Shown here in pieces: positions 5,497 through 32,805 of a DNA stretch of 34,061 bases (position 1 is its first letter; every line of letters begins with the position of its first letter). Origin of the DNA: Chlorobiota bacterium (GTDB lineage Bacteria; Bacteroidota; Bacteroidia; JAADEI01); contig JAADEI010000031.1 of assembly GCA_013153515.1 (NCBI GenBank), positions 1-34,061 of the forward strand, written 5' to 3'. Under the pieces are notes generated by a model that did not search any database, had not been told where the DNA came from, and worked only from the letters and a program-made list of their open reading frames with translations. Both the position numbers and the translations under genes were made by a program.

Positions 5497-5662
5497 ACCT
5501 GCTAAGTTATGATATAATTCAACGAATAACAGGAATGTTTAAGCATTATAAACAAGGCATGGATGTCCTGATTATGTTGCAAATCTTTTCAACTTGGTAG
5601 TAATATGACAAATCTTCAATTTTTTGTCCCAAAGCGTGATTATGTTAGAAAAAAATGGCAAG

Positions 5663-7285
5663 ATGAAAAGGTTAATTCTGGTTGGGCTCTTGACAATTCT
5701 GATTAGTTCTCAGTTGCACGCTCAGTTCTGTTCATATCTGAAGCAGTTCGGCGATGTTGATACGATGGTTAGATTCTCCGACGCAATAGTTCGTAATGAC
5801 ACACTTTTTATAGTGGGATATAAGGAGTTTAATGAGGGGTCGGCGTGGTCAGGATTCATTTTAGCTATGGATAATAATTCAGGTAATGTTTATTGGAAGC
5901 GAGAATATATGTTTGGTTCATCAGACACATCGCAAGTTCTGGCAACAGCCACTTTCCTTGGGAAAAATATCCTCTCAGGCGGATTAGCCAATGTGTCTTC
6001 CGGGGGCGGAATGGTTCTGCAACTCAATTCTCCTGATGGAACCCTTCTCTGGCGAAAAATATATCTCCTCTCAGGATACCCTTCAATAAACGGGGCAATT
6101 CCCGCTAATATGGAAGTTGTGGGAAATAAAGTATACATTGCCACATACTCAGGGGCTATAATTATAGATAGCAGTGGAACCGTTCAACAGGTTTTTATTA
6201 GTGAGCCTTATTTCATGACGGATGTTCAAGCCATAGGACCCAATAGGCTACTATGGTCAGGTGTGTATATGAATCAGGACACTAACGACATTTTTTACCT
6301 TGTTACCGACACGTTGTTAAATGTCTTGGTTGGCTATAAGTTAGGGACATGGCGTTTTGACGGCGGTTCCATTATTGTTTTTTATGACATTACATATCGC
6401 AATTTGTACGTAGTCAATGCCTTACTATATAAGCCTGACTCGTTAATCATAGTTGCACCAACCATCGGCATCTCGCCAGATCCGTATGTTGTTGTGAATA
6501 GCACAATGATGATCAAAGTGGGGTTGGGCAGCGGCAATATCCAGAAGGCTTATGCATTCTGGGGAAATACCTATGTTCCATCTGATATGGTAGTAAACAG
6601 ATCCCTCTTGCATCAAGATAACCTTTACATTTATGGAACGAGGAATTCAAGCGGTTCGGGCATAACAGATGCATTCCTCTTGAAAGTGAATCCGTCTGAT
6701 CTGTCAATAGTAAATTCATATCGTGCGGGATATAAAAATTATTCCACTTCCCTTCCCGTGCTCACGGCAACACCTGATGGAACCATATCTTTCGGATTTT
6801 GGACTGATGTTTGGGATGTTACGGGAAGCGTTATTAATCAATTCGGGTCTTGTCAAACTTGTTTCTCCGATTTCTCTACTGAAATAGCAGTTGTTCCTAT
6901 AAGGGATTCCCTTTCCGTGCGTCCCATCACTTCATCAGTGTTTGACTCAGTGTCCGTTTCGCCCATAGTGTATTCCTTCTCTCAGGATAAGTCCCTACCG
7001 GACTATTTAGTAGATGGGTGTCCTCTGGTTAGCTCAATAGAAATGGCAGAATCTTCCGAGGGAGAATCGGGCAAGATAGTTGCCATAGATGGACGCATTA
7101 AGTTAATTGGTTTCAAGGAAGCAGTCAAGCAAATTGAAGTTTATGATGCACTGGGTCGCAAAGTAGCATTCTTCAGTGGAAACATTACAGAACTTGAGTT
7201 GCCAAGCGAACTGCCCCCAACCCTGTTAGTGGTTAAAGTAACGACGGAAAATAGAGTAGTGACGGAGAAGGTGTGGGTGCAGTAA
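5663..7285 (+). CDS. Secreted propeller-repeat protein with T9SS type A-like C-terminal sorting domain
   Basis: Signal peptide MKRLILVGLLTILISSQLHAQ (alternative ATG at 5642; the supplied ORF starts at a TTG). About seven degenerate propeller-like repeats, Cys-cap segment, then 'IEVYDALGRKVAFFSGNITELELPSELPPTLLVVKVTTENRVVTEKVWVQ'. Confidence 0.75.
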   Translation: MKRLILVGLLTILISSQLHAQFCSYLKQFGDVDTMVRFSDAIVRNDTLFIVGYKEFNEGSAWSGFILAMDNNSGNVYWKREYMFGSSDTSQVLATATFLGKNILSGGLANVSSGGGMVLQLNSPDGTLLWRKIYLLSGYPSINGAIPANMEVVGNKVYIATYSGAIIIDSSGTVQQVFISEPYFMTDVQAIGPNRLLWSGVYMNQDTNDIFYLVTDTLLNVLVGYKLGTWRFDGGSIIVFYDITYRNLYVVNALLYKPDSLIIVAPTIGISPDPYVVVNSTMMIKVGLGSGNIQKAYAFWGNTYVPSDMVVNRSLLHQDNLYIYGTRNSSGSGITDAFLLKVNPSDLSIVNSYRAGYKNYSTSLPVLTATPDGTISFGFWTDVWDVTGSVINQFGSCQTCFSDFSTEIAVVPIRDSLSVRPITSSVFDSVSVSPIVYSFSQDKSLPDYLVDGCPLVSSIEMAESSEGESGKIVAIDGRIKLIGFKEAVKQIEVYDALGRKVAFFSGNITELELPSELPPTLLVVKVTTENRVVTEKVWVQ

Positions 7286-11078: not shown

Positions 11079-13898
11079 TTATGGACAAATCTTAAGCAAT
11101 GTCCCGCCTGTTGCGGTGCTAAGCGAAATGTTTCCGCTACTACCGAAATTGGACACTGATGGTGAATAGTTTGCTATAGATGTCCAGTTGGTTGCTGTTC
11201 CCACTGTGGTTACTTGGCAACCTGTTGAACATGACAGTGTTCCGTCGGGACGAAGCTTTACTACGTACATATTAGGGGTTCCTGAACCGAATGAGTTGGT
11301 CATCCCTACGATGGTTATGTAATTACCTGTGAAGGTCGTTACTCTATGTGTCCAGTCAGTGGCACTGCTGCCGATAGCCCTGCCCCATAGATAATTACCT
11401 GCTGTGTCCAGTTTGAACACCCATCCATCTCTGGACCCCGCCCCTGCTGACTCTGTCCCGCCAGTGATGACTATTCCATCGTCGCTTGTGTATGCCACGT
11501 CTTCGGCAAAGTCAAATCCACCGCCAACATATACCCTGCGTGCCCAAATCAAATTACCCCCTGGATCAATCCTGTAAACAATAGCATCTCCGCCGTTGAC
11601 ACCATACGCCGTGGCTTCCACCACCACAGACCCATCTGGCAATGCAACCAGACCAATTGAGTTGTCGTCCGTGCCGCTTCCCAATGCTTTAGCCCACCTC
11701 AGATTGCCAAGAGTGTCAAAGTTTAGCAACAAGCCATCTTGATTGCCCAAAGGACCGTTTCTGACAAGCCCCGCAATATATATATTGTTTCCATGCACTG
11801 CCACGTCATACAATTGAATCAACTGCCCCCCAGCAATTGTCTTGCCCCATATCAAATTGCCTGAAGCATCAAGCATTCCAACAATGCCCCTGTCCCATCC
11901 ACCAGTGCTGTTCCCATATCTGTAGCCAGAATAGACTATCTTTCCACTGGGCATGACCGCTAAGCCCCGTATTACTTCCGTTTCCTCAGATACGAACCGG
12001 CCAACTCGTTTAATCCATTGTGTGTTCAAGTTAGCATCCAGTTTGATGACAATCGCATCGTAATAGGGCCAAGAACCTGTTTCCCCACCTATTAAATATC
12101 CACCATCTGGAGCTTGCACTATGGTATATCCATAGTCCTGCTGTGTCCCCCTATATCGCCTTGTTAATAATAGGCTGTTGCCATCGGATGAAATCCTTGC
12201 CAGAAAAACGTCTTGGTTACCGCCTCCTGACGCACCACCATATTCCCCCGCGACAATCAAGTCGCCATTAGGGGCTTCTACAACACCCCATAAATCATCA
12301 ACTGTATATGGACCAACAATAGCCAAGCAGAAACTGTGGCAAATGTCTGAACGCACAAACAAGGAATCCTGTCCTATGGCACAACCGTCTGTAACAGTAA
12401 CTTTTATGTAACCATCTGTAGCGTCTGGAATTAGCGTTATTGAGTCGCCACCGATAGTAACGACCGTCCACGATGGTGGATATTGCCATGTCCAGGAGGT
12501 GGCACCGCCAGGGTTGAGGTGCCAAGTGGCTGGCTGTCCAGAGCATAGTTTCGTAGGACCTGAAATTGTTGGGTTTAAGATTATATTCTGGACATTGACA
12601 GTATGCTGTATAGAATCGCATCCACAGGGATTGCACGCTTTCACCCAGAAAGTTCCTGAAGCACCTGCATTAGGAGGAATAACAATTATGGAATCTGCGG
12701 TTGTGCTACCGAGAGCAGTCCATGATGATGGAACGGTCCATTGCCAAGAGGTAACACCACCATCTGCAGAAGCATGAATGATAACCGTGTCTATTGGACA
12801 CACTGGGTTAGGGGGACTCTGCGTGGTTGTTATACTGAATGGTTGCGTCTGTCCTGTTATTAAAACGCTATCATAAGGCGAACATCCACACCAAATGCAT
12901 TCCTTGACCTTGAAACGGGAAGTGTCAGCACTGACAATTATAAACAAAGAATCTTTTGTTTGACCGAAATAATAGTTCCAGCCAGTTGGAATAATCCATT
13001 CGTATTTATGCGATTGGGAGCAACCGTGAGCGACGATGGAGACCGTGTCGCCAATGCATGTCCACACTGGAACAGTGAAGTTTATCCCGCAAGCAGGAAT
13101 AAGACAGTTCGGACAAGACAGAATCATCCACCTGTTCCTAACAGAGTCAAAAATTTCAAGACAGAGACTGTCTGTTTCAACAATGATTAATCCGTGTGCT
13201 GGTGACGGAATGACTTGACGCTGGGCAATTGTTAGGCGAGGGAAAAGCACGCCCCGACCGGAATCTATCACTTGCAAAATTGCGGATGGATGTGGAACGT
13301 TCATTCCAATACCTATTCCCGCTGTGTCTGGATTAGTTCCTGAAGGTGGTTGTATACAAGGAGTTACGCAACGTTTTTGGGTAAAAAGTGTTACCCATTT
13401 AGCTCCGTCAAAAATTTCCACTTTAAGAGTATCGCTTCTGGCAATGATGAGATATGGTGCTGGGGAAACAATTGAGCTCCGTTGGGCATAGGAAAGCATC
13501 GGCAATAGAATGCCTTTCGTAGTGATTTCAAGATGAAGCCGTGCTGAATGATGGATATTCCTTATTCCGACGGCAATGCCTTCAGGTGGTTGCGTTCCAG
13601 AGGGTTGAGGAGTGCAGGGTGGAGCGCACCCGAAGGTGTCGGCTACCACAACCCATCGCTTGGACACAGAATCAAACATTTCTATTGTAAAACTGTCTAT
13701 GTTAACTATAAGGAGTCCGTGGGCTGGAGAGGGAATGTTATCTCTTTGCGAAACGGTCAATCTGGGCAAAAGGATACCACGTTTGGTATCGTGAACTTCC
13801 AACCGAGCAGTGGGGTCAGGCGTAGAAGTGCCAATGCCTACACGTTGCCCATAAACAATGCTTACCCCTAAGAGAAAGCAAAGAGCCAATGCCCGCAT
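11079..13898 (-). CDS. Large secreted protein: three VGIGT-type head repeats, Cys-rich Ig/PKD-like repeats, seven propeller repeats, terminal Cys-capped tail
   Basis: Signal peptide MRALALCFLLGVSIVYGQ. Head repeats start 'VGIGTSTPDPTARLEV', 'VGIRNIHHSARLHL', 'IGIGMNVPHPSAILQV'. 'CIWCGC' and 'CNPCGC' repeats; seven ~50-aa 'DGxxIxxGxTxSxGxGxxDxxVxKLDxxGNxxWxxxxG' repeats; ends 'GGTLLKICP'. Confidence 0.85.
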   Translation of the reverse strand: MRALALCFLLGVSIVYGQRVGIGTSTPDPTARLEVHDTKRGILLPRLTVSQRDNIPSPAHGLLIVNIDSFTIEMFDSVSKRWVVVADTFGCAPPCTPQPSGTQPPEGIAVGIRNIHHSARLHLEITTKGILLPMLSYAQRSSIVSPAPYLIIARSDTLKVEIFDGAKWVTLFTQKRCVTPCIQPPSGTNPDTAGIGIGMNVPHPSAILQVIDSGRGVLFPRLTIAQRQVIPSPAHGLIIVETDSLCLEIFDSVRNRWMILSCPNCLIPACGINFTVPVWTCIGDTVSIVAHGCSQSHKYEWIIPTGWNYYFGQTKDSLFIIVSADTSRFKVKECIWCGCSPYDSVLITGQTQPFSITTTQSPPNPVCPIDTVIIHASADGGVTSWQWTVPSSWTALGSTTADSIIVIPPNAGASGTFWVKACNPCGCDSIQHTVNVQNIILNPTISGPTKLCSGQPATWHLNPGGATSWTWQYPPSWTVVTIGGDSITLIPDATDGYIKVTVTDGCAIGQDSLFVRSDICHSFCLAIVGPYTVDDLWGVVEAPNGDLIVAGEYGGASGGGNQDVFLARISSDGNSLLLTRRYRGTQQDYGYTIVQAPDGGYLIGGETGSWPYYDAIVIKLDANLNTQWIKRVGRFVSEETEVIRGLAVMPSGKIVYSGYRYGNSTGGWDRGIVGMLDASGNLIWGKTIAGGQLIQLYDVAVHGNNIYIAGLVRNGPLGNQDGLLLNFDTLGNLRWAKALGSGTDDNSIGLVALPDGSVVVEATAYGVNGGDAIVYRIDPGGNLIWARRVYVGGGFDFAEDVAYTSDDGIVITGGTESAGAGSRDGWVFKLDTAGNYLWGRAIGSSATDWTHRVTTFTGNYITIVGMTNSFGSGTPNMYVVKLRPDGTLSCSTGCQVTTVGTATNWTSIANYSPSVSNFGSSGNISLSTATGGTLLKICP

Positions 13899-14050: not shown

Positions 14051-15673
14051 TTAATGTTTTTGGGTAAAGCGTTGTTTTATGTTTTCCAAGGGCAAAAGCC
14101 AAACTGTTGCTCTTAAATTAGTTAGCTTAATTGTAGATGTAATTTTTGATTCTAATTCGGATGCTTTGAAGGGGGATTCCCAATTTCCTACAACCTTTTC
14201 AACCGAAACACCTTGTTGAAGGGCATATAGCATCGGCAAAAGCAGAACAGTTTTTTCAAGCCGTAACATAATTGGGTCTTCACGGTAAATCTCTATCAGT
14301 TTCTTGATGTATTCTTCTCTTTTCTTCGGAGTGCTGATGTTCCAATAATTGGTTAATTTCATTAATAAGTTGGGTAATTTGACGTTTAGTTTATGTCTGC
14401 GAGCCCACTGATAAAACAGATTTGCAAAGTTATATGCACTATTGAAAGCGCTGTTTTTAAGATAAAACACAATGTTGGCTATATAATAAACCTTTCCGTA
14501 CCACAGGTTGCTTCGTTGCAATTCCCTTAGTTTCTCGATGGTTCGCTTAAATAGATGCTCGTCGTTGTTGATTATTGAGATGTTCAAATCGCCTATAAGC
14601 ATGGCAATGAATGGAACAAATTTGAGTTTACTGGATGTCTCACTATCTAATAAATTCTTCACATACAATGCCTTGCCTGTAAACCCATGCAGAACATACC
14701 ATCGGTATAGTGTGGGATAAAGAACAATTTGATAATCAATGGGCAAATCGTCTTTAATCTCTTTCCATAGTTCAGTAGGAATCTTTTCAAACTCTAAAAT
14801 ATGTTTTTTATTAACATTATGTGCAACTAAATAGCCTGATTGAGCAAACATAACGCCCAAGAAGTTTAGTAGTATAGCGAAGTGGCGTCGGGGAAATCGC
14901 TCTCTTAAGACAATGGATTCGTTTAGTAGTTCCAGAACCACTGACACATATTTATTTATTGATTCTTGAAGATTAAGTTTTTGCAATATGCTGCTTAGAA
15001 TGTAGTAAAACGATAATAAATGGTAATTGTATGTTCCATTAGGCATTTTAAGAAGGTTTATTTTTTGTAGTGCTATGTCAAGAAGATTTGCTAATTCGCT
15101 TAATAATTCTTTTTCATGTATTGACATAGGCAATTTTGTGTGTGCATTATTTCCCAACCAAGCGGAAAATAGTTCAAGGTCAATGGCTTGCGTCATTGAA
15201 TTCAAGACATCTAAGGGAATGGCAGTTCCTTCAATGTATGTTTCAAATTCTGCACTAATGATACGCCACACAGAATCTTCAAAGAACCACTTATTTGAGG
15301 AGTATTTAAAATCTTTTGCCGGCTTAGGCAGGGCATGTCCAACGCCTTTGCGATTCCCAAGATATATCCATAGCATCATAAGTTTAATCTGCTCAAATGT
15401 TGAGGGGTCTGCGAAGGCATAGGACAGTAGGGCATCCATGACTATGTTCAGAGCCTGCTTGCGTAGGGACGCTAAGTAGGAATGCGAGTAGTTCTTCAAT
15501 ATTTGTTGTTCAATCTTCTGTCGCTCTTCATTATTTATAGAAGTGATAAGGTCTGTAAGGAATTTGTGTACTTCGGTGCCTTCATATTGACTGATGGCGT
15601 TAGCAATATAACGCTTTTCTTGTGTTGTAAGCAAATCAATCAGGTGCCAAAGCCTTGGGAGTCGCTTGGTCAT
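14051..15673 (-). CDS. Uncharacterised ~540-aa helical (TPR-like?) cytoplasmic protein, paralogue of 27100-28695
   Basis: No signal peptide. N-terminus 'LWHLIDLLTTQEKRYI' and C-terminal 'FYQWARRHKLNV...LIEIYREDPIMLRLEKTVLLLPML' correspond to similar segments in ORF 27100-28695. Confidence 0.7.
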   Translation of the reverse strand: MTKRLPRLWHLIDLLTTQEKRYIANAISQYEGTEVHKFLTDLITSINNEERQKIEQQILKNYSHSYLASLRKQALNIVMDALLSYAFADPSTFEQIKLMMLWIYLGNRKGVGHALPKPAKDFKYSSNKWFFEDSVWRIISAEFETYIEGTAIPLDVLNSMTQAIDLELFSAWLGNNAHTKLPMSIHEKELLSELANLLDIALQKINLLKMPNGTYNYHLLSFYYILSSILQKLNLQESINKYVSVVLELLNESIVLRERFPRRHFAILLNFLGVMFAQSGYLVAHNVNKKHILEFEKIPTELWKEIKDDLPIDYQIVLYPTLYRWYVLHGFTGKALYVKNLLDSETSSKLKFVPFIAMLIGDLNISIINNDEHLFKRTIEKLRELQRSNLWYGKVYYIANIVFYLKNSAFNSAYNFANLFYQWARRHKLNVKLPNLLMKLTNYWNISTPKKREEYIKKLIEIYREDPIMLRLEKTVLLLPMLYALQQGVSVEKVVGNWESPFKASELESKITSTIKLTNLRATVWLLPLENIKQRFTQKH

Positions 15674-24898: not shown

Positions 24899-24947
24899 TT
24901 ATCACACATATTTGAGATTTGTATATGATAGTTTTTGTGGTGCCTAT

Positions 24948-26858
24948 ATGAAACATTTGCTTGTTGTCAGGCGTATTTTGGGGAAAGGAAGAGCTAAATA
25001 TCCGAGGATGGGGCTTCCAAATAGTTTGTGGTTCAGTGTTATTGGAGTACACATTATAGGGGCAAATGTTTTACATGGGCAAAATGGGTGCGTTAGTGTG
25101 GGCACTTCGGCGTTAGATAGGGGGTTTGATGCCATTGACTTAGCATCAGGCGGGATTCTTGCAATTGGATATACAGAGGGCGTAGGTAGTGGTTTAAGGG
25201 ACGGCTATTTTGCTAAAATTAATAGCGACGGAACCTTTGGATGGGGTAAGTCTTTCGGTGGAGGTAATCATGAAGAGCTATATGATATTGTCTTGTGGGG
25301 CTCTCATTATGCTTTGTTAGGATATACACGAAGTTATGGGGCAGGCAGTGCAGACGCCCTAGTGTTGATAATTGACGATGCAGGAACCATCTTGGGTTCA
25401 TATACTTACGGTGGTTCGGGGAGCGAGCAGGCTAAGGCGGGGATAGTTACGCCTTCTGGCAATTTAGTAGCAACCGGCTTTTCTTATTCTTACAGTTCAG
25501 GTGGGGCAGATATGTATGTTTTTAAAATTGATAATACTGGTAGTTTATTGTGGGGTGTTGGGATTGGGGGCTCTAGTGATGAGAGGGGACGAGGAATCAT
25601 TAATGTTGGAGACACTGGATATGTTGCTATTGGATATACTAATTCTGCCGGTGCCGGAGGATATGACTTTTACATCGTTTCACTTGATGTCAATGGTAAT
25701 GTCAAATGGACGAGAGCAATTGGCGGACCCAGTAATGATTTCGGACAAGATATTATATCCATTGGTGATACATTACTTATAGCTGTGGGCTATACATCCA
25801 GTTTTGGAAATGGAGGAGAGGACGTTTATGTCGTTGCCTTAGATGAAAGGGGGAATTTGAGATGGAGCGAGGCAATCGGCGGTTCTGGTAATGAGAGGGC
25901 GTGGAGCATTAGTGCCACGGCAGATGGAAACATTGTAATAGTGGGACAAACAAATTCTTTCGGTGCGGGAGGTGTGGATGGATATGTTATAAAAATGGAT
26001 TTATATGGAAACATTATGTGGACCCGAACAGTTGGCGGTACGGGGAATGACTACTTTCGTTCAGGGAAAGAATCTTCTTCGGGCGAATTAGTATTAGCGG
26101 GATGGACATCATCCTTTTCCCTTGGCGGTGACGACATCTTTATCGTGAAGCTGGATGCTAACGGCAACCTGAGCTCAGGATGCACTTCCTGTATCATTAG
26201 GAGTGGCGGTACTGCCGTGAGCGTTATTAGTGTGATCGGAGAATTTGGGAGCGTCTCCTCAGGCGGAGTTCAAGGAACTGGTAGTAATTCAACCAATGCC
26301 GGTGGGTCACTATTGGTAACATGTGTTTTAAATAATGTTTCTGTTGTGTTGAATGGGATGAAGCAAGGAGAAAATGTTGAACTAAAGTGGCACGTGGAAG
26401 GCTCAGACCTCATTCAAAAATTCATTATAGAAGGAAGCAATGACGGCACTCATTTTGAATTTATTGATGAGATTGATAATCACTACAGCGCTAAACAAGC
26501 ATATTCGTTTGAAGTGCCTGATTATTGGAGGTTTTACAGGGTGAAGGCAATAACGATTGATTATGCAGATGGAGTTTATTCTAATATTTGGGCAAAATCT
26601 CAAAGTACACAGAGCGATATTGCTATCCAAACAACACAAGTGGTGCATAATAACTTGGTTATTGAGATTTCTTCAAAAAGGGATAGAACATGTAACATAG
26701 AGTTAATCACAGTTGACGGCAAGATTATTAAAAGAGAAGTGGTTGCATTGCGTAAAGGAATCAATCGGATTGTTATAAATAATGTAAATAATGTTAACAA
26801 TCAATCCCTGCTTTTGTTAAGAATTGGGGAGCATAAAGCGATTGTGCAGGTGTTTTGA
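24948..26858 (+). CDS. Secreted seven-repeat propeller protein with a T9SS-like C-terminal region
   Basis: Seven consecutive ~51-aa repeats ('ERGRGIINVGDTGYVAIGYTNSAGAGGYDFYIVSLDVNGNVKWTRAIGGPSN' etc.), CxxC-cap segment, then Ig-like 'FIIEGSNDGTHFEFIDEIDN...' and 'IELITVDGKIIKREVVALRKGINRIVINNVNN...LLLLRIGEHKAIVQVF'. Confidence 0.82.
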   Translation: MKHLLVVRRILGKGRAKYPRMGLPNSLWFSVIGVHIIGANVLHGQNGCVSVGTSALDRGFDAIDLASGGILAIGYTEGVGSGLRDGYFAKINSDGTFGWGKSFGGGNHEELYDIVLWGSHYALLGYTRSYGAGSADALVLIIDDAGTILGSYTYGGSGSEQAKAGIVTPSGNLVATGFSYSYSSGGADMYVFKIDNTGSLLWGVGIGGSSDERGRGIINVGDTGYVAIGYTNSAGAGGYDFYIVSLDVNGNVKWTRAIGGPSNDFGQDIISIGDTLLIAVGYTSSFGNGGEDVYVVALDERGNLRWSEAIGGSGNERAWSISATADGNIVIVGQTNSFGAGGVDGYVIKMDLYGNIMWTRTVGGTGNDYFRSGKESSSGELVLAGWTSSFSLGGDDIFIVKLDANGNLSSGCTSCIIRSGGTAVSVISVIGEFGSVSSGGVQGTGSNSTNAGGSLLVTCVLNNVSVVLNGMKQGENVELKWHVEGSDLIQKFIIEGSNDGTHFEFIDEIDNHYSAKQAYSFEVPDYWRFYRVKAITIDYADGVYSNIWAKSQSTQSDIAIQTTQVVHNNLVIEISSKRDRTCNIELITVDGKIIKREVVALRKGINRIVINNVNNVNNQSLLLLRIGEHKAIVQVF

Positions 26859-27099: not shown

Positions 27100-28695
27100 A
27101 TGCGGTCTGAAAAGTCCACTTTATTTTTATTGTGGGTGTCCCTTTCAAAAGGGGAAAAGACATTCATTAAGAAAAGGCTAAGGAAAGAGCTTTCTCCTTC
27201 AGGCAAGCTTTACCGCTATTTTCAGAGCATTTTTACAGAAGATGATGCTAATGTTGGTAAGTTACGACGAAAGGAGGAGAAGTGGAAGGAAAAGAATAAC
27301 CTGAGTATGAATGCTATATATGTCTTAAGAACACAACTGTTTAATAAAATAATCGCAATTTTGGGAGATTTTTACTTTAAAGAAGGGGATCGTCCTATAT
27401 TAGAGAATTTAGAACGTCTCAGTATTAACCTTATTCTGTCAAGACAAAATCCTGCATTAAAGCGGGTGGTAGAACGAAAAATAAGCAGGTGGGTTTTAAG
27501 TGAGCCATGGTGGAAAATACAATCTCCAGTATATGCCTTTGAATTCGCACAGTATTACAGTATTGAAAATTTATCCGAAGCACATAAGATTATAGATGAT
27601 GCGGCTATGTCACAGAAAATTATAAGCACGCTAACTCATGAACAATTCTCTATGAATAAGTTTTTAGAAAGACCGCCGATAGTAGCTGAAACATTGAGCC
27701 CATTGGATATTAAGCCATTCATAGAAATGATAGATGCGTTGATTGAGAAAGGAAAGGTTCCAGATATGGCTGCTGGAACAGGACTTCTGACTCTCAAAAT
27801 TCTTCAATGGTTATTTATATTCAGATACCAAGTTTTTCAGGAATTACTTCCAGTTTTTTATTCTTTCGTTAGACGTATGTTGCAGATAGCAAGCAGGGTG
27901 CCCAGACAAATACGCTCAATAACCGATGCATTAGTAATCTCTCTTCTTGACTTAAGTTATCCGTCCATCACAGGGGTTCCGTATCCCCGTTGGTTAGATG
28001 ATTACGCATTGAACATGCTCAAGACAAAGAAAAAGATAAGAAACACGCAGTACTCAACACTTCAACAGCTTATACTACTGCGTTGGCTTATCTACCATAA
28101 ACAAGAACTATTGTCTTTTTGTGAGGACATTCCGCAGACCAAGGAGATGCAACACATGTGGCTCCTAACACGCATTCCTGTTCTACTCAACAATAAGGAC
28201 TTTAATTCTCCATTGTATTATGAGGTGGAGCGATATTTGTCAGAGCAGGGTTCAGTGGATGAATATGGATATTTGCTTTTACAATTGTGGAAGTGGATTA
28301 TGGCTTTAGAATCCGACAACATAAAAGATTTGGACAAAATAGTTCATAGGTTTTATCAATGGGTTTTAAGGCATCGCTATGATTCCCTTCGTCCGTTGGT
28401 TAATTGGTTGCGAACAGTAAGTGCCAATGTAGTGAAGGCAAGCAGAAGAGTGTTTTGGAAAGAACATTTTGTTAAACTGAAACAAATATATAGGGAAAAT
28501 GCTCTTTTATATAATTTGGAATGGCATCTACCATTAATTAGGTATGTCTATTCCAAGTCAGAAGGGACGAGATTACTTGATCTCAAGTATTGCCATTATG
28601 AACACAAAGTAAGTTGGCGAAAAGAATATGATATCCAGGATATTGTAGGTAAAATAAGGTCTTTTGCTATGTTGATCAATCAGCAGAATCCGTAA
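27100..28695 (+). CDS. Uncharacterised ~531-aa helical (TPR-like?) cytoplasmic protein, paralogue of 14051-15673
   Basis: 'LFLLWVSLSKGEKTFIKKRL' N-terminus and 'FYQWVLRHRYD...LKQIYRENALLYNLEWHLPLI' C-terminus correspond to segments in ORF 14051-15673; no signal peptide. Confidence 0.7.
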   Translation: MRSEKSTLFLLWVSLSKGEKTFIKKRLRKELSPSGKLYRYFQSIFTEDDANVGKLRRKEEKWKEKNNLSMNAIYVLRTQLFNKIIAILGDFYFKEGDRPILENLERLSINLILSRQNPALKRVVERKISRWVLSEPWWKIQSPVYAFEFAQYYSIENLSEAHKIIDDAAMSQKIISTLTHEQFSMNKFLERPPIVAETLSPLDIKPFIEMIDALIEKGKVPDMAAGTGLLTLKILQWLFIFRYQVFQELLPVFYSFVRRMLQIASRVPRQIRSITDALVISLLDLSYPSITGVPYPRWLDDYALNMLKTKKKIRNTQYSTLQQLILLRWLIYHKQELLSFCEDIPQTKEMQHMWLLTRIPVLLNNKDFNSPLYYEVERYLSEQGSVDEYGYLLLQLWKWIMALESDNIKDLDKIVHRFYQWVLRHRYDSLRPLVNWLRTVSANVVKASRRVFWKEHFVKLKQIYRENALLYNLEWHLPLIRYVYSKSEGTRLLDLKYCHYEHKVSWRKEYDIQDIVGKIRSFAMLINQQNP

Positions 28696-28861
28696 TGTGG
28701 CTGAATTTAGTTCTGTCTAACGTAAGTGTTTATGGCTGGATATGTGCTGGTAATTAGGGCATTGTAATGAATGATTACTGCCGAAACGATTAAGAAAAGA
28801 GCGATATTGTGCCAATTTCGTGCTTTTGAGCCGTCTATCTTTGAAGAAAATAAGTAGGGAG

Positions 28862-29437
28862 ATGCAGTTCTTGGATAGGGTTAAAAGGAGGGCGTTGGGA
28901 CTCTTGATACTCATTATGATTTTGGGACTGGAGATTTCTGCCCAGAACGTTGGTGTTGGAACAACCGGTCCACATCCTTCCGCCGCACTTCATATATCTG
29001 ATTCGTCTCGTGGGGTCCTAATCCCAAGATTGAATACTTACCAACGAGATAATATCTCTGCGCCCGCTCATGGGTTAATTATATTCAATGTAGAAACATT
29101 TTGCTTAGAAACGTATGATGCTTATGCAAAAGAATGGAAAGTAATCAGTTGCCCGGGAACGTGTACGCCATGTGATACATGTCAATTGCCACAAGTAAAT
29201 AATTTACAAAGCTCTGCTAATAGTCTTTGTGAAGGCGACACCATTATGATCACTATTGAGGGCAGTGGGGGAAGCATGGTATCCTGGAACTTGCCTGTTT
29301 CGTGGCAGCAATTGAGTTGGAGCGATACGTTGCAAGCAATTGTCCATTCATCGGGATGGGTCTATGGAAGCTTATGTAATAAATGCGGTTGTGTTACAGA
29401 TAGTTTATATGTTAACGTCTCAAATTCTTGCCCATGA
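28862..29437 (+). CDS. Short secreted protein: one VGIGT-type head plus one CxxCGC Ig-like domain
   Basis: Signal peptide MQFLDRVKRRALGLLILIMILGLEISAQ; 'VGVGTTGPHPSAALHISDSSRGVLIPRLNTYQRDNISAPAHGLIIF'; 'CNKCGCVTDSLYVNVSNSCP'. Supplied ORF starts at 28820. Confidence 0.75.
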   Translation: MQFLDRVKRRALGLLILIMILGLEISAQNVGVGTTGPHPSAALHISDSSRGVLIPRLNTYQRDNISAPAHGLIIFNVETFCLETYDAYAKEWKVISCPGTCTPCDTCQLPQVNNLQSSANSLCEGDTIMITIEGSGGSMVSWNLPVSWQQLSWSDTLQAIVHSSGWVYGSLCNKCGCVTDSLYVNVSNSCP

Positions 29438-32400
29438 ACAAAGGATTTAATGGGCATTTCGTAGCATCATTTCTCCTCTTCTTACTTCTGCCCGTGAGGG
29501 CTCAACAGGTTCAAGGAGTTGGCATCGGAGTTATATATCCAGATCCAACAGCCATATTGCACGTTGAAGCAGAGGGACGCGGAGTACTATTACCACAATT
29601 ATCTGAGAAGCAAAAACAAAGCATTTTAAACCCTGCTCACGGATTAATTATTTGGAATTCCTCAACACAATGCATGGAAGCTTATGATTCCATAAGAGAG
29701 AAATGGTTTGCCTTCTCTTGTCCAATGACTTGTTCGCCATGCAGTGAGTGCCTCAACCCCATAATAACATTTGTTTCAGGAGCCCAAGATATTTGTCCCG
29801 GTAGTGAGTATAGCTACTACGTTATATCAAACGGTGGTAGAGCTATTTTTTGGATGGCTCCATCCCACTGGCGCCAATTGGTTAACGGAGATACAACGAG
29901 ATTTGTCGCTGGACACCCCGGATGGCTTAAAGTGGCTGTATGTAACGAATGTGGGTGTTCCATAGATAGCATTTATGCAAATATCGGTGCCCCCCCAACC
30001 GATACGCCTATTATTCTTCTTCCTTCTCAGGTTTGCAACTTAGACACCATTATGGTTTTGGGAGCCTATATGTCCCCTACAACAGCTATGGATTGGATTT
30101 GGCAAGTAGATTCTCCTTTGAGCGTGTTACCTCCCGTTAATAATGATACGATTTTAGTTGTTCTTCCCGACTCATCGGGAGCCTTGGGACTCTCTCTCCA
30201 AGTCTGTAACGGTTGTGGATGTAGTCCAATAAGAAAAACAACAATCCAAGTGAAAGGTCCTCCTGAACCAACTACGCTACAGGTACAGATAAATCCGGAC
30301 CCAGTGTGTCCAAATGATATAGTTCAGGTAATAGCATCAGGGAACAATGTTCATGGATGGGCATGGTTTGTTCCTCCAAATTGGGGATTAATAAGCAATA
30401 ACTTAAATGATACGATCTATGTGAGGGCTCCTGCATCTATCGGGACAGATACATTCCTTTTACAAGCCTGTAATGATTGTGGATGTACCTCACATATTCC
30501 AGTTCCTATCAGTGTTCAGGGGGCACCCCCATCGCCAACAGTTCGTGGACCAAATAGTGCATGTATTCAAGATACCATAGTGCTTGTTGCTAGTAGCCCC
30601 GGTGCAACAACATGGTCCTGGACACTTCCTTCAGGATGGGTCCCTCTTAATGGTTTAACCAATGATACATTAATTGCGCTAACAGGTAATGCATCTGGAA
30701 CGCATTCCCTTTCTGTTATCGCTTGTTCACCCTGTGGTTGTAGCTCCCCATCTTTCCACACTGTTTCTTTGAGCGATGGACCCTCCCTCTCTGTCAATGG
30801 GCCAACAACCATTTGTCCAAATGCTACTGTTTCATTTTCCGCTTCAGGTTCTGGAATTATTTCGTGGAATTGGCTTCTGCCTTCAGGGTGGACACCAACA
30901 GGTCCCATTACTAATAGTACGTTAACTGCGATAGCACCCTCTTCCGTCGGAACCTATACTATCCAGGTACGAGGATGTGATCAGTGCGGATGTACAACAG
31001 CTTCTTATCCCGTTACGGTTTCTTCATCTTCGCCAACAGTAAGTATTTCAGGACCTCCGACTGTTTGCCCGGGAGACACAGTAGTATATAATGCTAATGG
31101 CTCAGGAATTACATCTTGGACATGGACAATTCCACTCGGTTGGACACCGTTGGGACCAACTAATTCAAGCTCTGTAAGTGTTGTCGCCCCCCTCTCTCCG
31201 GGCACATCGGTTATTCGTGTGCAAGGGTGTGATTCCTGTGGATGTTCTTCTGATTCACTCATTGTTAATATAACAGGTTCCCCTGCACCGCCAAACATCT
31301 CGGGTCCTTCTTCGGTGTGCCTAGACGATACGGTAATCTTAATCGCTTCAGGCTCCTACAGTACTTGGACTTGGACCATACCAGCTGGGTGGACAGCTGT
31401 TAATTCACCCGCTGACGATACCCTTATTGTAGTAGCACCATCAAATTCGGATACTGCCATATTCACTGTTCAGGGATGTGGCTCATGCGGGTGCAACAGT
31501 TCAAACCATACCATAGTTAGTAGGGACACGTGCCAAGCGATGTGTTTTACCTTCGGAGGAAATTGGAGTGATGGGGAGGTGGGTTTGGATAGAGGAGCTA
31601 ATGTTACTTCTACTTCTGACGGTGGATTTATGATAGCAACTCGCTCCGTCTCTTTTGGAGGTATTTATCTGATAAAACTGGATCAAAATTTAAACGTTCA
31701 CTGGGCTAAATCACTTAACTATTCTCTCGGAGGGGCACAGTCAGGATACGAAGAAGCATGGGAAATAGAACCCACCCCAGACGGAAATTATGCTATTTGG
31801 GGAATAGTTGATAGTGCAGGGAAAAATGCCGATTTTTTTGTCGCAAAGGTAGATATTAATGGCAATGTCCTCATGGAACGAGCCATAGATACACGTGGTT
31901 GGGAGGTGGCTACCGATGGTACTATCACTACTGATGGTGGATACGTATTAATCGGTCATACAAACATCAATTCTTACCCAGAGATAACTTTAATGATAGC
32001 TAAAATTAGTTCAACGGGCAATTTGCAATGGAGCAAAATATACCCTTCACGAAAATCTCTAATTGCTATTGATTTTACCGACATAAAAGAATTTAACGGA
32101 AATTTAGTTGCATTATTTACGAACATTCGAAACACGGACACCACATATCTATTAGGTATTGACCCTGCTACCGGCAATGTGTTGTGGGCAAAAGCAATTT
32201 TATCAACGGACCCAAATAGCCCTCTGGAGCTTCATGAAATGCTTGTATCCTCAGACGGATCTCTTGTTCTGGCAGGCCAATATGGGGGAGATATGGCTAT
32301 CATAAAACTGAATGGTTCATATAATGTAGTATGGGCTCGTCAGGTGGGAACGGCATCCCTAGGTGAAGGAGGAGTAACAAAAATAATAGAGTCATCCACC

Positions 32401-32805
32401 GGTGATTATGTAGTAATAGGAGGGCAAACAAACGGTTCCTCTGCATATTTAGCTTACTTGGTTGCAATGACTCCTTCGGGGAATTTGTCTTGGACTAGGT
32501 CAATAGCCCATTCGAGCACTGCATATGATTATCGTCCCGGAGGAATAGCAGAAAATAGCGGTAAGATAATTGTTACGGGCTCAATGAGAGGGATAAGAGG
32601 AGGGGATGTGTTCATCTCTCGTGTTTATTTAAACGGGGAAGCAGGAACTCCGTGCACAAATTGTTATAACACCTCAATTGGTTCTTCCTCGCCGATCTCA
32701 GTTCAAATGATAAATGTATCTTTTTCAGCAGTAGATATAGGTTCATTGAGAATTCCTAACCATACCGTTAATAGCGGAGGAACACAACAGCCTTTGTGCC
32801 CATAG
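29434..32805 (+). CDS. Large secreted protein: one VGIGT-type head, about seven Cys-rich Ig/PKD-like repeats, seven propeller repeats, terminal Cys-capped tail
   Basis: ATG at 29434 overlaps the upstream stop (ATGA). Signal peptide MNKGFNGHFVASFLLFLLLPVRAQ; head 'VGIGVIYPDPTAILHVEAEGRGVLLPQL'; seven CxxCGC repeats; propeller repeats; ends 'NSGGTQQPLCP'. Confidence 0.87.
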   Translation: MNKGFNGHFVASFLLFLLLPVRAQQVQGVGIGVIYPDPTAILHVEAEGRGVLLPQLSEKQKQSILNPAHGLIIWNSSTQCMEAYDSIREKWFAFSCPMTCSPCSECLNPIITFVSGAQDICPGSEYSYYVISNGGRAIFWMAPSHWRQLVNGDTTRFVAGHPGWLKVAVCNECGCSIDSIYANIGAPPTDTPIILLPSQVCNLDTIMVLGAYMSPTTAMDWIWQVDSPLSVLPPVNNDTILVVLPDSSGALGLSLQVCNGCGCSPIRKTTIQVKGPPEPTTLQVQINPDPVCPNDIVQVIASGNNVHGWAWFVPPNWGLISNNLNDTIYVRAPASIGTDTFLLQACNDCGCTSHIPVPISVQGAPPSPTVRGPNSACIQDTIVLVASSPGATTWSWTLPSGWVPLNGLTNDTLIALTGNASGTHSLSVIACSPCGCSSPSFHTVSLSDGPSLSVNGPTTICPNATVSFSASGSGIISWNWLLPSGWTPTGPITNSTLTAIAPSSVGTYTIQVRGCDQCGCTTASYPVTVSSSSPTVSISGPPTVCPGDTVVYNANGSGITSWTWTIPLGWTPLGPTNSSSVSVVAPLSPGTSVIRVQGCDSCGCSSDSLIVNITGSPAPPNISGPSSVCLDDTVILIASGSYSTWTWTIPAGWTAVNSPADDTLIVVAPSNSDTAIFTVQGCGSCGCNSSNHTIVSRDTCQAMCFTFGGNWSDGEVGLDRGANVTSTSDGGFMIATRSVSFGGIYLIKLDQNLNVHWAKSLNYSLGGAQSGYEEAWEIEPTPDGNYAIWGIVDSAGKNADFFVAKVDINGNVLMERAIDTRGWEVATDGTITTDGGYVLIGHTNINSYPEITLMIAKISSTGNLQWSKIYPSRKSLIAIDFTDIKEFNGNLVALFTNIRNTDTTYLLGIDPATGNVLWAKAILSTDPNSPLELHEMLVSSDGSLVLAGQYGGDMAIIKLNGSYNVVWARQVGTASLGEGGVTKIIESSTGDYVVIGGQTNGSSAYLAYLVAMTPSGNLSWTRSIAHSSTAYDYRPGGIAENSGKIIVTGSMRGIRGGDVFISRVYLNGEAGTPCTNCYNTSIGSSSPISVQMINVSFSAVDIGSLRIPNHTVNSGGTQQPLCP
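29752..31530 (+). repeat. Protein-coding tandem repeat: about seven ~75-90-aa Cys-rich Ig/PKD-like units
   Basis: Unit pattern 'GP..(V/I)CP.DTV...A.G...(W).W..P.GW.........AP...G...I.V..C..CGC.S....V.V'. Seven CxxCGC motifs: CNECGC, CNGCGC, CNDCGC, CSPCGC, CDQCGC, CDSCGC, CGSCGC. Confidence 0.8.

Follow-up and report, generated by a model that had tools for sequence, protein, structure and literature searches.

The Cys-capped tail encoded in the window (the whole stretch of DNA analyzed here, 34,061 nucleotides from a Chlorobiota bacterium) is a real accessory module of seven-bladed propellers of the SBBP/delta-60 type. Taking the predicted structures together with the anatomy of the tail, we consider it probable that the module forms a belt around the rim of the propeller, adding an edge strand to every blade and held by a Cys “buckle” and in many cases also a Cys “rivet”; such a belt would stabilize the exported propeller. 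Propeller folds are frequent among exported proteins of bacteria, and their familiar closures are velcro strands and single disulfides. In the literature searched we came across no such belt, and the balance tips slightly toward its being a new propeller topology, in which a repeat-encoded, Cys-buckled belt supplies a fifth edge strand to each of the seven blades, in at least two dialects and several phyla. If true, a disulfide-locked belt running around the circumference, with a single short strand for each blade, would amount to a novel means of reinforcing a toroidal fold, would account for the Ser/Thr/Gly-rich stretch that recurs, blank in the databases, in numerous surface proteins of Bacteroidota, and would offer protein designers a ready-made staple.

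Tail copies in the window and their host propellers

A sequence-only reading of this DNA had proposed that two proteins share a 50-residue Cys-capped tail, and the ends of ORFs 11079-13898 and 29428-32805 confirm this. Protein A (ORF 11079-13898, minus strand) has the C-terminus CSTGC...GGTLLKICP, with 50 residues counted from the first Cys onward (codons 11231 to 11082; tail 11082-11231, minus strand; Cys1 codon 11229-11231, Cys2 11217-11219, last Cys 11085-11087). Protein B (ORF 29428-32805, plus strand) ends in CTNC...GGTQQPLCP, again 50 residues from the first Cys (32653-32802, plus strand; Cys1 32653-32655, Cys2 32662-32664, last Cys 32797-32799), and GGT occupies tail positions 42-44 in both. 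Domain profiles bear out the claim that A and B stop at the tail, as neither has a T9SS type A, B (CHU_C) or C domain at the thresholds used. The internal copy proposed for protein C (ORF 24912-26858, plus strand) is likewise upheld: it reads CTSC...LLVTC, 48 residues from Cys to Cys (26181-26324, plus strand; Cys1 26181-26183, Cys2 26190-26192, last Cys 26322-26324), after which the chain goes on. A fourth copy, missed by that reading, lies in protein D (ORF 5624-7285, plus strand), where a longer tail of 57 residues (CQTC...DGC; 6851-7021, plus strand) precedes a T9SS type A domain (TIGR04183; 7115-7282).

Every characterized tail copy comes after a propeller, in nearly all cases one of the SBBP/delta-60 type, which is built from seven repeats, each about 50 residues long, with the pattern DxYVVKLDxxGNLxWTxTIGG; for single proteins the TIGR02608 matches fall below the curated cut-off. 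In the window, the seven-bladed propeller of A spans 11232-12347 (minus strand) and includes the N-terminal closing strand FCLAIVG (Cys codon 12327-12329); that of B spans 31525-32652 (plus strand; closing strand MCFTFGG, Cys codon 31543-31545); the seven-bladed propeller of C spans 25077-26180 (plus strand; closing strand GCVSVGT, Cys codon 25089-25091); and the N-terminal strand Cys of D is at 5729-5731 (plus strand). AlphaFold2 models of A (pLDDT 91.6, pTM 0.92, from a 28-sequence alignment) and C (pLDDT 89.2, pTM 0.88, with the tail at only 59-79 pLDDT) contain 28 propeller strands, that is, seven four-stranded blades, and in A the outer strand of blade 7 is supplied by the N-terminal strand, which closes the propeller. 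The best Foldseek matches are propellers.

The tail is about one blade long and begins directly past the last one, as it would if it were only the last blade or a velcro strand closing the propeller, which the sequence-only reading had considered and proposed to settle by structure prediction. However, in both models the seven blades are already complete without the tail, the 28 strands including the closing N-terminal one, and tail-less relatives keep the same seven blades and end right past the same strand or pass straight into a type A domain. The tail is thus an optional extra, and we have set closure by the tail aside as highly improbable. No clear case of a tail-bearing propeller with six or eight blades was found, the apparent six-blade cases being missed repeats, and two propeller loci from viral contigs both lack the tail.

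Length, periodicity and cysteines of the tail

The first and last Cys of the tail are 46-49 residues apart in 51 of 64 exploratory tails, and among exploratory seven-bladed proteins with a Cys directly past the last blade, the next distant Cys falls at position 46-49 in 37 of 53. A held-out set comprised 80 separately fetched loci, mostly from genomes not used before, and 76 of them were seven-bladed. Among these, 56 proteins have a Cys directly past the last blade, and in 46 of them the partner Cys falls at 45-51; this fraction is no measure of prevalence, as these loci were picked with a profile that includes the tail. Set against a Cys frequency of 1.6% per residue, these sequence counts indicate that the conserved spacing exceeds chance. 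Autocorrelation gives a repeat period of six residues in a Gly dialect (SSGGTx) and of seven in a Pro dialect (SPTVTxV), and we counted seven segments in both. Tails from a genome of the same family (G003) read CPGGCQ-(xSGGTx)n-LTNICP, and other lineages have SPTVTxV-like units (e.g. L156 and L174). The constant distance of about 47 residues from Cys to Cys and the seven segments recur, with exceptions such as L046, which has seven blades and a 25-residue tail, and an SprB-associated dialect, in which the last Cys is absent from its usual place. This different dialect (L268, L279, L287 and L293) follows seven-bladed propellers as CGTG...TKLPLGVLITTTGVTC, with the last Cys missing at 47 and SprB/PKD-like repeats coming next.

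A second tail Cys, where present, lies near the first in the form CxxC, CxxxC or CC, and its presence covaries with a Cys in the N-terminal closing strand, one position past the usual Trp/Phe of that strand. Both were present in 24 cases, the strand Cys only in none, the tail Cys only in one, and neither in 16 (Fisher p=1.6e-10); the corresponding held-out counts were 3, 0, 2 and 41 (p=6.6e-4), and both p-values are nominal, since the counts include related sequences, though the pairs span several genera. In L062, L249 and L299 the second tail Cys has no closing-strand partner. The covariation fits a putative rivet joining the two ends of the propeller. If the second tail Cys pairs in this way, the first and last Cys remain to pair with each other, which would close the tail on itself.

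These regularities bear on whether the tail is a flexible linker with no defined structure. It is of low complexity and rich in Ser, Thr and Gly, with almost nothing conserved besides the Cys, and no entry in Pfam, NCBIfam or the PDB matches it; single weak matches, such as that to NF047709 RiPP_TigB (1 of 34, E=0.003), were put down to composition. A linker of this kind would nevertheless be hard to reconcile with the conserved Cys-to-Cys length, the periodicity, the covariation with the N-terminal strand and the confidently predicted strands in the model of A, and we regard it as a most improbable explanation.

Distribution and position within proteins

The rest of the window genome (a 2.2 Mb draft) holds at least six more terminal copies (C69, C98, C54, C94, C146 and C106), a short variant (C53) and internal copies (C105, C66 and C76). 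Beyond it, the tail occurs in many families of the same class. It also reaches other classes of its phylum (L200-L202), MAGs of Ignavibacteria and Chlorobi, and individual MAGs labeled Calescibacterium, Fischerbacteria and Moraniibacteriota, these names being labels only; it was found across Bacteroidota and a few other phyla. A strict tail-only profile recovered few members from 396 genomes of the phylum (four at E<=1e-4), and we give no prevalence figure because the tail is too variable for a census by sequence. In a protein of the Calescibacterium MAG (L146), two seven-bladed propellers stand in tandem and a separate Cys-to-Cys tail follows each of them, which makes this protein useful as a natural test of the module. 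G003, a JALWYU01 MAG, carries about 20 propeller-plus-tail paralogs in one 2.1 Mb genome (L078-L097), some of them in tandem (L340), and their very similar blades suggest recent amplification.

The sequence-only reading had also raised the possibility of an unrecognized sorting signal. A C-terminal sorting or anchoring signal, of the T9SS or another system, would agree with the 29 exploratory proteins, mostly of the window family, in which the tail is terminal and stops one residue past the last Cys, with the lack of known T9SS domains in terminal copies, and with the SprA and C25 peptidases of the window genome. However, when we asked whether homologs are terminal, as that reading had proposed, the tail proved mostly internal outside the window family, lying before type A domains (often), PKD/SprB-type sequence or a second propeller, and L146 has two copies in one protein; the terminal position is mainly a habit of the window family. 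The tail does not match the sorting-domain profiles TIGR04183, TIGR04131/PF13585 or NF033708, and it is confined neither to the C-terminus nor to genomes with a T9SS translocon, as internal and duplicated copies and genomes with no SprA match attest. SprA had no match in the genome of L174, where the tail is terminal and a C25 peptidase is present, or in that of L146; G062, a Bacteroidia genome encoding type A domains, likewise lacked an SprA match, and absence from a draft genome is not absolute. The internal place, the double copy and the genomes with no SprA match led us to reject a T9SS signal, and a sorting or anchoring role of any kind seems very unlikely. What stands of the earlier reading is an unrecognized module of conserved length and Cys, distinct from type A and CHU_C; its definition by a terminal place does not. 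C-termini of the window type should not be counted as new T9SS signals, which removes a false lead.

In place of a T9SS domain, the terminal-tail proteins of the window family mostly have N-terminal VGIGT-type and PKD_6 modules. The N-terminal part of A contains three tandem copies of one unnamed module (VGIGTxxPxPSAxLxVxDxxRGxLxPRLTxxQRDxIxxPAHGLIIxN), with which most terminal-tail proteins in its family begin. A stand-alone short ORF (28820-29437, plus strand) encodes one copy of this module and one PKD-like domain, and about 10 of its bases are shared with the start of gene B; the tail gene of C98 has a similar short VGIGT ORF just upstream of it (L331, 5978-6592). A divergent family of proteins of about 530-590 residues with no Pfam match is encoded at 14051-15673 (minus strand) and 27100-28695 (plus strand) of the window, and also in L330, L334 and L337. 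Its genes lie directly upstream, on the same strand, of the tail-propeller genes A and B. The same arrangement holds for the tail-propeller genes of C69 and G001 C215 and for a propeller gene of G003 C94; other copies do not adjoin propellers.

A proposed rim belt and its relation to known systems

AlphaFold2 places seven short strands in the tail of both A (between 11085 and 11216, minus strand) and C, starting every 6, 7, 6, 6, 7 and 6 residues, although the two predictions rest on one common shallow alignment and are not independent. The tail of A appears to be docked, because its pTM of 0.92 exceeds about 0.88, the ceiling for an undocked tail of 50 residues; for C, with a pTM of 0.88, the argument is silent. 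If each seventh of a circle is spanned by 6-6.6 residues at 3.3 Å, the radius comes to about 23-25 Å, close to the rim of a seven-bladed propeller. A belt is the best fit, because such a ring matches the rim and would place the first and last Cys next to each other.

We propose that, past the third strand of the last blade, the chain would leave the propeller beside the N-terminal strand that completes that blade, and would then circle the rim once in seven short beta-strands, with GG or SP/NP turns between them, giving one edge strand to each blade. The first and last Cys would meet at the end of the lap and form a disulfide, the buckle, and the second tail Cys, where present, would pair with the closing-strand Cys as the rivet. 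Such a lap would stabilize the exported propeller and bring the chain back to its start, where the protein can end or enter another domain. The analysis establishes the module, its length and periodicity, its link to seven blades, the Cys covariation and the seven predicted strands; these features support the model, as do the tandem propellers of L146, each with a tail of its own. We infer the rim position and the disulfides from these features, and the anatomy of the tail suggests the stabilizing role.

The main alternative, to which we assign a clearly smaller though real likelihood, is that the seven short strands fold into a small compact domain, either a tiny solenoid or a lid, sitting on one face of the propeller with the same disulfides, the number seven being a coincidence of length. 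The pTM of A speaks for docking and not for the rim in particular, and solenoids also show regular repeats of six to seven residues with short strands. Yet the models of A and C each show seven strands, the Gly and Pro dialects each have seven segments, and the blades beside them always number seven; the tail also has few large hydrophobic residues with which to build a core of its own.

The proposed belt can be set beside several known systems. The host domain is that of the SBBP/delta-60 seven-bladed propellers (TIGR02608, PF17164 DUF5122), with the CylK propeller (7ron, 7roo, 7fh6) as the nearest solved structure (profile E about 1e-33, Foldseek TM about 0.77); no tail module has been described for these families, and the tail profile has no convincing PDB match. 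T9SS type A (TIGR04183), type B (TIGR04131/CHU_C) and type C (NF033708) domains are, like some tail members, C-terminal in exported Bacteroidota proteins, whereas the tail matches none of these profiles, can precede type A in one protein, and occurs where SprA is not found. The hexapeptide repeats of left-handed beta-helices share a period of about six residues, but the tail has no Pfam hexapeptide match, is Cys-closed at a constant length and is tied to a propeller. Velcro or disulfide closure, of which hemopexin is an example, likewise holds the N- and C-terminal parts of a propeller together, and a Cys-Cys link between the two ends is predicted here as well. In contrast to closure of the hemopexin type, the propeller described here is already closed, and about 50 further residues would add seven extra strands with a Cys pair of their own.
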